From positions 1 to 47,648 of the IMG/VR virus record IMGVR_UViG_3300036851_000166: DNA of 47,648 bases. One strand, 5' to 3'. Under the pieces are notes generated by a model that worked only from the letters and a program-made list of their open reading frames with translations, made no database searches and had not been told where the DNA came from. The DNA is from a virus. The translations under genes were made by a program, and so were the position numbers. How positions within the stretch are numbered: position 1 is the stretch's first letter; each line of letters opens with the position of its first letter. This document shows positions 22,916 to 32,940 of the stretch, one piece after another.

Positions 22916-22937
22916 GGGACTTATATACATGACTCCC
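22916..22937. repeat. Left inverted repeat
   Basis: Reads GGGACTTATATACATGACTC, then CC. It is the inverse complement of 25481-25502 with a single C/T difference at position 5. The stop codon of the last cargo gene lies inside it. Confidence 0.8.
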
Positions 22938-23127
22938 GCCGCTGAATATTGCGGGAACGCCGCGCCCGGCGTTTTGCCTTGGGCGTCCGTGCCTTGGGCT
23001 TGTGCGCGAGGATCGCGTCGGCAATCCGGTCGATGCGCTGCCTATATGCCTCCGGGTCTCCCGCCATTGGGGTGGTTTCCATCGCCGCGTTTTGGGCGCG
23101 GATTCTTGCCAGTTTGCGGTCTTTCAT
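22921..23127 (-). CDS. Small basic protein, last gene of the transposon-like operon
   Basis: 68 residues: MKDRKLARIRAQNAAMETTP, then a helix AYRQRIDRIADAILAHK and a very basic tail (PKAKRRARRSRN). Starts in an ATGA overlap with the transposase stop and ends inside the left inverted repeat. Coupling to the transposase suggests a DNA-binding helper or regulator, but there is no recognised family. Confidence 0.5.
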   Translation of the reverse strand: MKDRKLARIRAQNAAMETTPMAGDPEAYRQRIDRIADAILAHKPKARTPKAKRRARRSRNIQRRESCI

Positions 23128-24044
23128 GCGATCAGTTCCTTGTAGGTGATTCGGCGCTTCGCAGCGGCAGCAATCAGGTCGTTGACGCGCTCCAAGGTGT
23201 GCCGCTTCACGTTGCCCTCGTTCAGCCGGAAGGTGAACTCGTTGACGTAGCGGTTCAGGTGCTTGGGGCTGGCCTTGTGGTAGACCCCGTGGATGCCGCG
23301 CTTCATCACGGCCCAGACGGATTCGATGCCGTTGGTGTGGACGCCATCGCGGACGTATTCGCCCGCGCCGTGGTTCACGCTGTGGCGGTCGAAGAACAGC
23401 CCGCCGAGGCCCTTGTAGGCCGCGTGTTCGTCGCTGTGGATCGTGCTGCCAGCTTCGATGTGCTTGTGGATGGCCTGATGCAGCGTGGCGGTATTTACGT
23501 CCTCGACGTGCAGGGCGACAGTGCGCCCGCCACGTTCACGCATGCCGAGGACGGCGGCTTTTCCCACGGCACCGCGCCCCAAGCCCTTGCGCTTGCTCGC
23601 ATGCTTGTTGGCTTCGATGCCGCCGATGTACGCCTCGTCAACCTCGACGATGCCGGTCAGGACTTTCAGGTCAGCGCCGCAAGCCTCGCGCAGCCGTCCC
23701 AGAACGAACCAGGCGGACTTCTGGGTGATGCCGATCTGCTTGGACAGTTGCAGCGAGCTGATGCCCTTGCGCGCCGTCACAAGCAGGTACATGGCATAGA
23801 GCCACTTGTGCAGCGGAACGTGCGACCGCTCGAACACCGTGCCGGTGCGGACCGTGAAGTCCTCCTTGCACTGGTTGCAGCGGTAGTAGCCGTCCGCCCG
23901 CGCCGTGATGCGCTCGGGCAGGCCGCAGACCGGGCAAACCGGGCCGCTCGGCCAGCGGCGCTTTTCGAGGTAGGCCCGCGCCGTCTCCTGATCCGGGAAC
24001 ATCTGGAAAAGCTGGAAGGTGCTGATGGTCAGGTGGTCGTTCAT
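23124..24044 (-). CDS. IS1595-family transposase (ISXO2-like)
   Basis: 306 residues. N-terminal zinc ribbon: CPVCGLPERI and YYRCNQCKEDFTV, then the helical segment IGITQKSAWFVLGRLREA. Catalytic core: GIVEVDEAYIGG (first Asp), STIHSDEHAAYKGL (second Asp) and HTNGIESVWAVMKRG (third acidic/Asn position), as in ISXO2-like DDE transposases. Full-length, with no frameshift or stop. Unusually, its ATG overlaps the stop of a cargo gene and its stop overlaps the next gene, so it is expressed as part of an operon rather than from its own promoter next to the repeat. Confidence 0.9.
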   Translation of the reverse strand: MNDHLTISTFQLFQMFPDQETARAYLEKRRWPSGPVCPVCGLPERITARADGYYRCNQCKEDFTVRTGTVFERSHVPLHKWLYAMYLLVTARKGISSLQLSKQIGITQKSAWFVLGRLREACGADLKVLTGIVEVDEAYIGGIEANKHASKRKGLGRGAVGKAAVLGMRERGGRTVALHVEDVNTATLHQAIHKHIEAGSTIHSDEHAAYKGLGGLFFDRHSVNHGAGEYVRDGVHTNGIESVWAVMKRGIHGVYHKASPKHLNRYVNEFTFRLNEGNVKRHTLERVNDLIAAAAKRRITYKELIA

Positions 24045-24241
24045 GGCGCGCTCCGATCACGGACCTGAGGGAATGCCCATGAAGGCCGCAGTATTGCTCC
24101 GTCGGCCATGTTCCGCGCTGTCTCGGGATCGTTCGTCCATCCAATCACGATGCGCTCGTTCTTGTTCGTGTCGAACGCGGTCACTTCGTACCGCTGGCCC
24201 TTGTCGCCCACTGCGTGGGGCCTCCCGCCTGAGTGCGTCAT
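24041..24241 (-). CDS. Small phage-type cargo protein
   Basis: 66 residues: GQRYEVTAFDTNKNERIVIG and TNDPETARNMADGAILRPSW. This beta-beta-alpha small domain resembles small proteins seen in early regions of other phages rather than known insertion-sequence passengers. ATGA overlaps on both sides. Function unknown. Confidence 0.6.
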   Translation of the reverse strand: MTHSGGRPHAVGDKGQRYEVTAFDTNKNERIVIGWTNDPETARNMADGAILRPSWAFPQVRDRSAP

Positions 24242-24729
24242 GGCTTGCCCCCGCGCTTGCGGCGCTGTTCTTCCATGATCTTCGGCACCACATCGCGCTT
24301 CACGCGGTCGGTGTGTTTCTCGATTTCTTCTCGCGTAGCGGGGACCAAGCCGTGCGGTCCGATTTCCCCCAGTTTGTACGATGGGTGGAGCGTCTTGGCG
24401 ATGGCAGCCTTCGCTTCATCCAGAGCGCCCACAAACGTCCCGGCGAGCCGCACGGCCTTGACGCTCGACTTGCCGTTGTCCAGTTGGAAAACGGGGACGT
24501 GTTCGCAAAGCTCCGTCAGCCTCACCAAGGCTGGCAGCAACAGGCCGCGCTCGTCCGCCGCCACCACGCGCTGGAAGGGCTGGGGGGCGGTATAAGGCAC
24601 AAGCTGGTCGAACAGCGCGCACAGGTGCGTGATGGCCTGCTGTGCCGGCTTCGACGCTCGGTAGCGTTTGCCGCCGATGGCGTTGCGGGTGGCGATGAGT
24701 TCTTCGACTTCAGGCAGATGCGCGGCCAC
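24238..24729 (-). CDS. Cargo protein paralogous to a rightward early gene
   Basis: 163 residues. The central ELCEHVPVFQLDNGKSSVKA and following VRLAGTFVGALDEAKAAIA closely match the C-terminal half of the rightward gene at 29990-30334 (VELCEHVPVFQLDGGRSSVK...). The C-terminus is charged and helical. The first third (LIATRNAIGGKRYRASKPAQ) is unique. A shared small domain of about 45 residues of unknown function. Confidence 0.6.
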   Translation of the reverse strand: MAAHLPEVEELIATRNAIGGKRYRASKPAQQAITHLCALFDQLVPYTAPQPFQRVVAADERGLLLPALVRLTELCEHVPVFQLDNGKSSVKAVRLAGTFVGALDEAKAAIAKTLHPSYKLGEIGPHGLVPATREEIEKHTDRVKRDVVPKIMEEQRRKRGGKP

Positions 24730-24913
24730 GTTTCACTCCGTTGCGGAAGATGATTACTTCCTGCGCTGTATGCTCATGGGGCTTGTTGTTGCCGCACAGC
24801 GGGCAGGTCTGCCCCGGCAATGGGCTAGGCTCCGGGACTGCGTTGTGAAGGTCGTCCTCGAAGTTCGTGCTGCTCGTACCGGGCCAAGTCACCGGGCTGC
24901 GCTGCTGCGTCAT
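24710..24913 (-). CDS. Small zinc-ribbon-like cargo protein
   Basis: 67 residues with TCPLCGNNKPHEHTAQE (C-x-x-C and H-x-H) followed by VIIFRNGVKRGRASA. Probably a small metal-binding protein. Overlaps the next gene by 20 bases and the previous one by ATGA. Confidence 0.5.
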   Translation of the reverse strand: MTQQRSPVTWPGTSSTNFEDDLHNAVPEPSPLPGQTCPLCGNNKPHEHTAQEVIIFRNGVKRGRASA

Positions 24914-25143
24914 GGCCGCTCCTTGGCGAGGGCGGCACGATGAAACTCGATGCGCTCGGTCTGGTACGCGGCAGCCGCCTGGAAACTCTCCGCCGTTACC
25001 CCCGGAAACTTGGCGTTAACGTCGGCCGAGGCCAGTTCGCAAGCCCTCTGAAGGATATGGCGCTCGCGCGCGGCGCGCGGGCTGTTGTCGCGTGAACGCT
25101 CCTGTTCGCGCTTGGTTGCTGCGTAGCGTGTCTCGTAGCTCAC
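24910..25143 (-). CDS. Small helical cargo protein
   Basis: 77 residues, highly charged and helical: MSYETRYAATKREQERSRDN, RHILQRACELASADVNAKFP, and YQTERIEFHRAALAKERP. ATGA overlaps on both sides. No recognised family. Confidence 0.5.
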   Translation of the reverse strand: MSYETRYAATKREQERSRDNSPRAARERHILQRACELASADVNAKFPGVTAESFQAAAAYQTERIEFHRAALAKERP

Positions 25144-25382
25144 GGCACGCTCTCGTCGTCGCGGTCGGAACGCTCGACCGACCCGTAGTGCCGCGTGTCG
25201 CGGGCATCGGTGCCGTCAGATTCCTCGCAGCCTTCGAGCGCCGCATCGTAGAGGTCGCTATCCGTCTCGACGTGGCGGCCGCAAAACAGGGTCACGGCCT
25301 CGTTCGCGTCTCTGGCCCACTGCGCCCCCGCGAACGCTCCGCCGAGGTCCTCGCGGTAGCGGATTGTGTAGAGTTTGGTCAT
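25140..25382 (-). CDS. First cargo gene, resembles rightward early gene at 29.7 kb
   Basis: 80 residues: MTKLYTIRYREDLGGAFAGA, then QWARDANEAVTLFCGRH and an acidic tail. The opening K-x-Y-T-x-x-x-x-x-D-L-x-x-x-F-x-G and later DARDTRHYGSVERS resemble the product of 29709-29933 (GKTYTVILNDDLDEVFGGF). ACGGAG lies 6 bases before the ATG. First gene after the promoter. Confidence 0.55.
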   Translation of the reverse strand: MTKLYTIRYREDLGGAFAGAQWARDANEAVTLFCGRHVETDSDLYDAALEGCEESDGTDARDTRHYGSVERSDRDDESVP

Positions 25383-25421
25383 CGGTTTCTCCGTCTATCC
25401 GGCCACTTCGACCGTAGGCGT

Positions 25422-25450
25422 ATAGTAGTTAACTCCCATGAGGTAGTCAA
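25422..25450 (-). promoter_or_regulatory. Sigma70-type promoter inside the right inverted repeat
   Basis: On the minus strand TTGACT (25450-25445), a 17-base spacer and TACTAT (25427-25422). Transcription would start about 30 bases before the ATG at 25382 and run through all seven genes. It lies 31 bases inside the right inverted repeat, so the unit carries its own promoter. Confidence 0.65.
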
Positions 25451-25480
25451 GTGCCTAACGCCATGAACCGACGAACGGTA

Positions 25481-25502
25481 GGGAGTCATGTATATAAATC
25501 CC
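25481..25502. repeat. Right inverted repeat
   Basis: Reads GGGAGTCATGTATATAAATC, then CC; partner of 22916-22937. Outside it follows TAATCTTT. Confidence 0.8.
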
Positions 25503-31724: not shown

Positions 31725-31918
31725 GCGTCATTCAAGGCCCGTGGAAGTCCGGCGAAACGCTGCCGGAGTACGTCAAGCAATTGCATGCCTCAGTCGAGCG
31801 GGAGCCGCAGAAAGTGGTGAGCCTGGAGGCCGCGCGGACTCTGAAAGAGGCCCTGACACGATGGCACATGAACCTCACACCGCCGGGGCAACCCGGCAAA
31901 GGAATTCCTGACCAATGA
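31721..31918 (+). CDS. Small protein upstream of RecT
   Basis: 65 residues: MSVIQGPWKSGETLPEYVKQ, then a helix KVVSLEAARTLKEALTRWHM. ATGA overlaps with the HNH gene and with recT. Could be a recombination accessory protein; not recognised. Confidence 0.5.
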   Translation: MSVIQGPWKSGETLPEYVKQLHASVEREPQKVVSLEAARTLKEALTRWHMNLTPPGQPGKGIPDQ

Positions 31919-32940
31919 GCGACCAGCAGGCAGAGACGGTGGACGCCAACACTGGCGAAGTGATGGTGGTCCCCAGGTGGAAACAGGCCATCATTGGAGC
32001 GCGCGAGCGTTTCGTGGCCATCGCCAGCCACGACCAAATGGTCGATTGGGCGCGCGAGTCCATGTTTGCGCTACAGGCCCTTGAGCGCAACGAATACCTG
32101 CGCGACATCGCCGAAAACAACCCTGGAAGCCTGCGCAACGCCATCATCAATGTTGCGGCCTGCGGCATTACCCTAAATCCGGTGAGCCAGTACGCCGCCC
32201 TGGTTCCTCGGGATGGGGCCGTGTGCCTCGATGTGATGTATCGCGGCTTCATCAAGATCGCGACGGACGCCGGGTCCATCCGCTTTGCCAAGGCTGAAAT
32301 CGTGCATGAGGCCGACACGTTCCTCTATCGCGGCCCGGTGGCGGCGCCTGACCACCACGCCGACCCGTTCCGCAAGGATCGTGGGGCCATCGTCGGCGTC
32401 TACTGCGTCGCCAAGACGGCCGACGGGGATTTCCTGACCGAGGTCATGCCGGTTGCCGACATCGAGGGCATACGCGACCGCAGCCCCGCGTGGATGAAGG
32501 GAAAGAAAGGGCCGTGGCTGACCGACTTCGGCGAAATGGCAAAGAAGGTGGTCATCAAGCGTGCGCGAAAGACATGGCCCGAAACCAAGAACGAGCGGGC
32601 CGCACAGCGCCTCCAACTGGCCGCCGAGCTTGCCAACGCTGCGGACGGCTTCACCAATGGCCTGCCTGCGCTGGAACACATCGGCCCGACCGCGGGCGTA
32701 GCAGAATCCATTCCCGCCGAGATTCGCGAGGGGTTGATCGAGTTCGCCGCCAATGCGGAGGAAACGTTTCGCAAGGACGGGGCTGAGGCCACGAATGAGT
32801 ACATCGCCTCGCTCGGGCTCGACGTGGATCAGCAAACCTTTCTATGGTCCCGCCTGGACTCAAAGACCCGCACGGCCGCTAGGAAGGCGGCGGGCTACGG
32901 CGAGAAGCGCGACGGCCACTATGGCGAGGCGCGGACATGA
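31915..32940 (+). CDS. recT: RecT-family single-strand annealing recombinase
   Basis: 341 residues. WARESMFALQALERNEYLRD, LRNAIINVAACGITLNPVSQ, YAALVPRDGAVCLDVMYRGF, then MAKKVVIKRARKTWPE are the conserved steps of RecT. It anneals complementary strands for phage recombination. No exonuclease gene is adjacent; the exonuclease-like gene of this phage is at 37.3 kb in the late strand, so it would have to act with that or host enzymes. Confidence 0.9.
   Translation: MSDQQAETVDANTGEVMVVPRWKQAIIGARERFVAIASHDQMVDWARESMFALQALERNEYLRDIAENNPGSLRNAIINVAACGITLNPVSQYAALVPRDGAVCLDVMYRGFIKIATDAGSIRFAKAEIVHEADTFLYRGPVAAPDHHADPFRKDRGAIVGVYCVAKTADGDFLTEVMPVADIEGIRDRSPAWMKGKKGPWLTDFGEMAKKVVIKRARKTWPETKNERAAQRLQLAAELANAADGFTNGLPALEHIGPTAGVAESIPAEIREGLIEFAANAEETFRKDGAEATNEYIASLGLDVDQQTFLWSRLDSKTRTAARKAAGYGEKRDGHYGEART

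Follow-up and report, generated by a model that had tools for sequence, protein, structure and literature searches.

The insertion sequences (ISs) of the IS1595 family have an N-terminal zinc ribbon in all groups but IS1016 and usually contain a single transposase gene, as stated in the part of PMC8101967 on this family. IS copies with passenger genes are known as transporter ISs (PMC3129680, in a passage citing the IS1595 family paper of Siguier, Gagnevin, and Chandler, 2009, to which PMC8101967 also refers), and mobile insertion cassettes (MICs) are represented by MIC231 and the qnrD cassette (PMC3913671, in its part on such cassettes). Phages are considered to be poor in insertion sequences (a statement in PMC8136500, with the reference given there). 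Here we describe an element in a stretch of 47,648 nucleotides (hereafter the window), which comprises positions 1 to 47,648 of the IMG/VR virus record IMGVR_UViG_3300036851_000166 and encodes terminase, portal, capsid, and tail genes. The element, which resides in a phage genome, very probably belongs to a family of cargo transposons of the IS1595 type with fixed ends, a fixed core, and a variable cargo slot. Its parts, in the order of the operon, are the following.

22916..25502, minus strand: whole transposon, 2,587 bp, bounded by a pair of inverted repeats (IRs); relatives have the same ends and 8-bp target duplications.
25481..25502, no strand: IR at the upstream end of the operon, reading from outer to inner on the minus strand GGGATTTATATACATGACTCCC.
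25422..25450, minus strand: promoter-like site TTGACT-17-TACTAT, over which the inner half of the IR is repeated as a palindrome.
25140..25382, minus strand: cargo gene 1, 80 amino acids (aa); no match in Pfam, PHROG, NCBIfam, or phage records.
24910..25143, minus strand: cargo gene 2, 77 aa; without a match in Pfam, PHROG, or NCBIfam.
24710..24913, minus strand: cargo gene 3, 67 aa, with the zinc-knuckle-like motif CPLCGNNKPH; no Pfam, PHROG, or NCBIfam match.
24238..24729, minus strand: cargo gene 4, 163 aa; searches of IMG/VR and of phage records gave no relatives.
24041..24241, minus strand: cargo gene 5, 66 aa, of the GDKGQRYEV family of small phage proteins; relatives in 13 IMG/VR contigs.
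23124..24044, minus strand: IS1595-family transposase, 306 aa, with zinc ribbon and DDE domain; Pfam and NCBIfam matches, relatives in IMG/VR.
22921..23127, minus strand: second core gene, 68 aa, a small basic protein conserved in elements of the family.
22916..22937, no strand: IR at the downstream end of the operon, within which the last gene ends (TAA stop, after the peptide end ESCI).

The initial annotation had outlined this unit correctly. The 22-bp IRs, which it described as differing by one mismatch, are complementary at 21 of 22 positions (22 of 23 counting the next base), and their pattern, with up to three mismatches allowed, occurs at these two places only in the window and in none of 100 shuffles. 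All seven genes lie on the minus strand and overlap at all six junctions (by 4 bp of the ATGA type at five of them and by 20 bp at one), with the transposase as the sixth gene and a seventh that stops within the IR. The promoter-like site of the operon is also present, 40 bp before the first gene (TTGACT at 25450-25445, a 17-bp spacer, and TACTAT at 25427-25422), and the palindrome over it is TTGACTACC-TCAT-GGGAGTTA. The assignment of the transposase to IS1595 was borne out by Pfam PF12762 (DDE_Tnp_IS1595, E 2.3e-48), by the N-terminal zinc ribbon PF12760 (E 4e-12), and by NCBIfam NF033547 (IS1595 transposase, 205 bits against a cut-off of 75); the protein is full length and looks intact. Both ends of the element begin with GG (GGGAYTTATATACATGACTCCC), as in the IS1595 family. 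None of the six other genes has a Pfam, PHROG, or NCBIfam match.

Relatives of the transposase were found in at least 218 IMG/VR stretches, of which the best 80, with 63-81% identity to the window transposase, were kept, and a search with the repeat pattern returned at least 80 stretches with a near-exact IR pattern. The resulting loci, which carry L numbers below, are stretches fetched from viral contigs (IMG/VR) and from bacterial genome assemblies. Pairing of the IRs in these loci delimited 146 distinct elements (147 with that of L251). Matching target duplications (7-8 of 8 positions) border 107 of the testable elements, and about a quarter of the testable copies have none. In the first set, 104 distinct elements have perfect 8-bp duplications, which are 84% A+T compared with 41% in the flanks, show a G/C preference directly outside, and would be expected about 0.24 times by chance given that composition. 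The IRs are present in 47 of the 48 records that were searched whole, nearly always as one to three pairs, and are not scattered as regulatory sites would be.

Several of these elements have moved recently. One 1,561-bp element is present at 99.7-99.9% identity in three viral contigs (L018, L019, and L020), each time with a perfect duplication of its own (ATATATTA, GAAATTTA, and CATACCAA, respectively), and no similarity was detected between the three flanks when these were compared. When the element and one copy of the duplication are removed from L019 in silico, the remaining sequence can be aligned continuously with an intact gene of L197, at 74% over the 113 bases that span the junction. 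In addition, a 2,057-bp element occurs at different sites in L039 and L046 (96.4% identity), as does a TnpB-bearing cassette in L089/L138 and in L142 (95.7%). The same boundaries with other flanks are thus found among the relatives, and L197 has an uninterrupted homologue of the gene into which the L019 element inserted. For the window element, our searches returned no second record with either flank and no relative of either flanking gene, and therefore no empty site.

The core of the elements consists of an IR, the transposase, a small basic second gene, and the other IR. Cargo is located before the transposase in 42 elements (including that of the window), after the second gene in 34, between the core genes in nine, and in combinations of these slots in 11. 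Turnover of the cargo is best seen in L002, L004, L012, and L064, whose right parts, about 1,050 bp from the transposase start codon to the right IR (1,051 bp shared by the four), are 87-94% identical and whose left ~125 bp are related at 76-97%. Between these parts lie slots of 223-608 bp that are unrelated, also as proteins, and the homology picks up again at the transposase start codon; the flanks are unrelated, too. The same pattern of swapped cargo was found in front of the transposase in L028/L035, L068/L070/L154, L081/L176, and L021/L024/L027, and behind it in L017/L018/L163 and part of L047/L054. The nearest relative of the window transposase, in L003, carries its cargo on the opposite side of the transposase, and similarity at the DNA level is limited to the transposase and the IRs. 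The cargo changes faster than the core.

The single transposase gene that is usual, if not strict, for IS1595 elements is accompanied here by passengers and by a second conserved gene. A homologue of this second core gene is encoded in 93 of the 98 elements whose transposase is at least 60% identical, compared with only three of 15 more distant ones, and for 61 of 91 elements its start and the stop of the transposase overlap as ATGA. The protein has the core LDxIADxVLAYRPKPKSKPAKKRxRR, in which a basic tail follows a short helix-like segment, and represents a new candidate transposition factor. Four bacterial contigs with more distant transposases (L208, L225, L229, and L230) represent a sister IS1595 group, in which the transposase is directly followed by one shared long gene and the small basic gene is mostly absent.

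Cargo gene 5 also occurs outside elements, as an ordinary phage gene, and once as the cargo of another element. Its family has an invariant GDKGQRYE core. IMG/VR contains 13 relatives of the gene (L241-L253), 11 of which lie in fetched stretches without any IR. The relative in L251 is the cargo of another element of the family, in the opposite slot and with a perfect duplication, and that in L249 lies outside an element remnant. A confident model of the cargo gene 5 protein predicts a beta-beta-alpha-beta fold, for which no significant match was found among viral models or solved structures.

The same IRs and 8-bp duplications also bound units of 0.3-1.4 kb without a transposase, mostly with one gene. 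Viral contigs contain 25 distinct units of this kind that are bordered by duplications matching at 7-8 of 8 positions; with IS-type ends, a passenger, and a duplication they have the makeup of MICs. One viral record (L012) contains both a transposase-bearing and a transposase-less unit. In three cassettes, an open reading frame (ORF) runs from an ATG in one IR to a TAA in the other (L090:1733-2407, L116:1017-1325, and L148:2779-3423), two of these single genes being C5 DNA methyltransferases, and the stop lies within the downstream IR in seven of the 25. Start and stop codons supplied by the IRs were rejected as a general rule, as only these three run from IR to IR; they are an occasional trait. 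In L110, two transposase-less cassettes (477-1081 and 1090-1956) stand head to tail with the same 8 bp (CTATATTG) between and around them, resembling a small array made by repeated insertion at one target.

The functions of the cargo were surveyed in 94 cargo ORFs and in 106 ORFs from the element flanks. Pfam matches in the cargo comprise seven N6/N4 and six C5 DNA methyltransferases, two Dam, three PAPS reductases (nine by PHROG), two TnpB-like proteins, and one each of a QueD-like, a Lar restriction-alleviation, an Mrr, and an ASCH protein. DNA methyltransferases thus account for 15 of 94 cargo ORFs against about one of 106 flank ORFs (at most one methyltransferase-type match in the 25 families listed for the flanks, with five weaker families outside that list), which gives a Fisher p of 8e-5 with one flank match and of 0.002 if there were three. 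Judged by these predicted functions, the recognizable cargo is enriched in DNA modification and anti-restriction, and most cargo has no recognized function. A TnpB/OrfB-like gene without TnpA is the sole cargo between IS1595-type IRs in L089:2751-3928, L138:3886-5063, L142:2001-3178, and L134:1648-2804; in these cassettes the ORF stops inside the IR, and a perfect 8-bp duplication borders the cassette of L142. The guide would be the flank of the insertion site if the TnpB guide RNA extended beyond the IR. In L084:9791-10945, a QueD-like gene (the one Pfam PTPS match in the cargo set) adjoins a gene that by eye is transglycosylase-like, which suggests cargo for 7-deazaguanine DNA modification.

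The repeats also contribute to promoters. In elements with downstream cargo, TTGAC is found in the left IR in 24 of 31 cases, and in 21 of 31 it is combined with a -10 box at the right distance, compared with 4% at a random place. In elements with upstream cargo, the inner half of the IR is present as a further copy inside the element, which provides the -35 box, and 11 of 42, including that of the window, show the palindrome TTGAC...GGGAGTYA over it (0-0.2% elsewhere). The transposase may therefore also repress its own operon at this promoter copy of the IR, because it must bind the same sequence at the ends of the element. A promoter in the IR of every single-gene cassette was not supported, since a -35 and a -10 box are found there in only one of 25.

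A search of the 48 viral records with four profiles found a terminase or a portal in 26, and the terminase types are clearly different; therefore, the host phages are unrelated. The larger clade of the window transposase contains 79 sequences from viral contigs and 45 from bacterial assemblies (n = 124), which are intermixed in the tree, and the sub-clade of the window itself contains 19 viral sequences versus three from metagenome-assembled genomes (MAGs). A phage-only clade was rejected on these counts and because the neighbor genes of the element in large MAG contigs look chromosomal. Named phage records contain no relative of the transposase above 37% identity, and annotated plasmids contain no copy at 60% identity or more. 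We should note that L164 and L018 share one 50,118-bp contig, which IMG/VR lists as a virus and the genome collection assigns to a Myxococcales MAG; some MAG copies are therefore phage contigs binned with bacteria. No co-directional preference was seen in the orientation of the insertions relative to phage genes, as judged from naive ORF calls that are unreliable in G+C-rich DNA.

From these features a mechanism can be proposed. Transcription of the operon from an IR-derived promoter would yield cargo, transposase, and basic protein together, and the stop/start overlaps would tie the cargo to the transposase operon by shared transcription and co-translation. The transposase would bind the 22-bp ends and catalyze insertion of the unit into A+T-rich 8-bp targets, which are duplicated in the process, often in another phage or prophage of the same cell. 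Units without a transposase would be moved in trans by a related transposase. Two elements meeting in one cell would probably recombine via the shared left end, core, and IRs, by which cargo may be swapped and flanks mixed; such recombination would also account for the lack of target duplications in the window copy and in several near relatives. The cargo may benefit the phage that carries it.

Compared with described systems, the elements share with the IS1595 family the DDE_Tnp_IS1595 transposase, the N-terminal zinc ribbon, ends beginning with GG, passengers, and, in relatives of the window copy, 8-bp duplications. They differ from IS1595 ISs, in a comparison that leaves the ISfinder subgroups aside, by the conserved basic gene, an ATGA-joined cargo operon, codon-bordered slots, promoter parts built from IRs, and frequent residence in phages. 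The transposase-less units resemble MICs (MIC231, the qnrD cassette) and miniature inverted-repeat transposable elements in having IS ends and in being thought to move in trans, and share the passenger gene with the former; unlike both, they belong to a different IS family, reside in phages as cassettes of 0.3-1.4 kb, and have cargo of the DNA methyltransferase, PAPS-reductase-like, and TnpB-like types, and some of their ORFs start or stop within the IRs. Phage morons are small accessory genes between phage genes, defined by their position and promoter/terminator and not by transposon ends. The cargo likewise consists of accessory genes dropped between phage genes, but with visible ends, duplications, and an enzyme. 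Integron gene cassettes depend on an integrase and attC sites and form an ordered array; the elements share with them interchangeable genes between fixed parts but have a DDE transposase and terminal IRs and no integrase, attC sites, or array. In the open literature searched, with the passenger examples of the 2009 paper outside the comparison, we found no description of a phage-borne branch with a second gene, codon-bordered slots of fast turnover, IR-built promoters, and modification-gene cassettes.

Several observations weigh against the interpretation of the window element as a phage-borne cargo transposon or against its novelty. The window copy has no target-site duplication (ATGCAAAA and TAATCTTT, 0 of 8 in register), whereas 104 distinct relatives have a perfect one. 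Four of its five cargo genes (1-4) have no detected relatives where these were searched, so that their origin is unproven. Only 26 of the 48 viral records show a terminase or portal, and the family is not confined to phages, as the same clade is found in bacterial contigs with chromosomal-looking neighbors. Where several pairings of IRs were possible, the element scan chose those with a duplication; an earlier scan without this preference gave the same picture. Mobility is read from sequences, with no transposition, excision, or circle observed. Finally, IS1595 passengers, transporter ISs, and MICs are already known, and the initial annotation had pointed to such passengers.

An ordinary IS1595 transporter IS, with passengers captured by chance, no special slot or exchange, and phages as one host among others, has nearly an even chance of being a sufficient description. 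The transposase is a clear member of the family, passenger-bearing copies already have a name (PMC3129680, in the passage mentioned above), and virus and genome copies are mixed in the tree. Chance capture accounts less well for cargo borders at the start or stop codon of core genes, for the turnover between elements with nearly identical cores, for a conserved second core gene, and for recognizable cargo concentrated in DNA modification.

It is also quite possible, at somewhat less than an even chance, that the window copy arose as a composite when elements in two phages underwent homologous recombination, its flanks then coming from different insertions; such a copy is perhaps still active. 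This reading would refine the interpretation as a cargo transposon. A duplication is missing in the window and likewise in several near relatives (L002, L006, L011, L013, and L064), and cargo turnover between conserved ends is the expected trace of such recombination. The phage itself encodes a RecT-like annealing protein (window 31915-32940), a possible helper for recombination between elements. As neither window flank was found in a second record, the exchange is untraceable.

The initial annotation had offered two readings, a module moving phage accessory genes and a phage operon with a domesticated transposase. The first is supported for the family, given the same ends with other flanks and perfect 8-bp duplications, near-identical copies at different sites, swapped cargo, and a cargo gene that occurs in and outside elements; the window copy itself, which lacks a duplication, may have moved likewise. 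The second, in which a fixed operon would use the transposase as a regulator and keep the IRs as relics, is improbable. Besides the missing duplication, the tight coupling of the genes and their shared direction with the neighboring phage genes (22334-22834 and 25519-25677, both on the strand of the element) speak for it, but both IRs are near perfect and the transposase is a full-length protein that includes the zinc ribbon and the DDE domain. Neither the cargo nor the flanks of the closest relatives are related to those of the window element, and perfect duplications are frequent among them. In addition, our searches revealed neither a related phage that carries this operon nor a conserved place for it. 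That the IRs are operators alone was rejected as extremely improbable, for they nearly always occur as facing pairs bordered by 8-bp duplications, with one or few pairs per genome, although an additional regulatory role is probable, since 11 of 42 upstream-cargo elements have the internal copy of the IR inner half across their promoter.

A stronger version of the cargo transposon interpretation is speculative and rather unlikely: transposase and basic partner would form one enzyme pair dedicated to gene exchange among phages, taking up or replacing single genes at start- and stop-codon borders, with the transposase-less units as currency. If this is true, a whole community of phages would draw on the pair for interchangeable accessory genes, of which many would act against restriction.

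The arrival of accessory genes between phage genes is mostly attributed to illegitimate recombination. In the family of cargo transposons described here, the acquisition leaves a visible scar, with defined ends, 8-bp duplications, a transposase, and single-gene units with modification-type genes. A search pattern of this kind could find recently mobile, probably anti-restriction, genes among uncharacterized phage proteins. In these elements, phages may have a concrete means of acquiring extra genes, which makes the gain of accessory genes testable.

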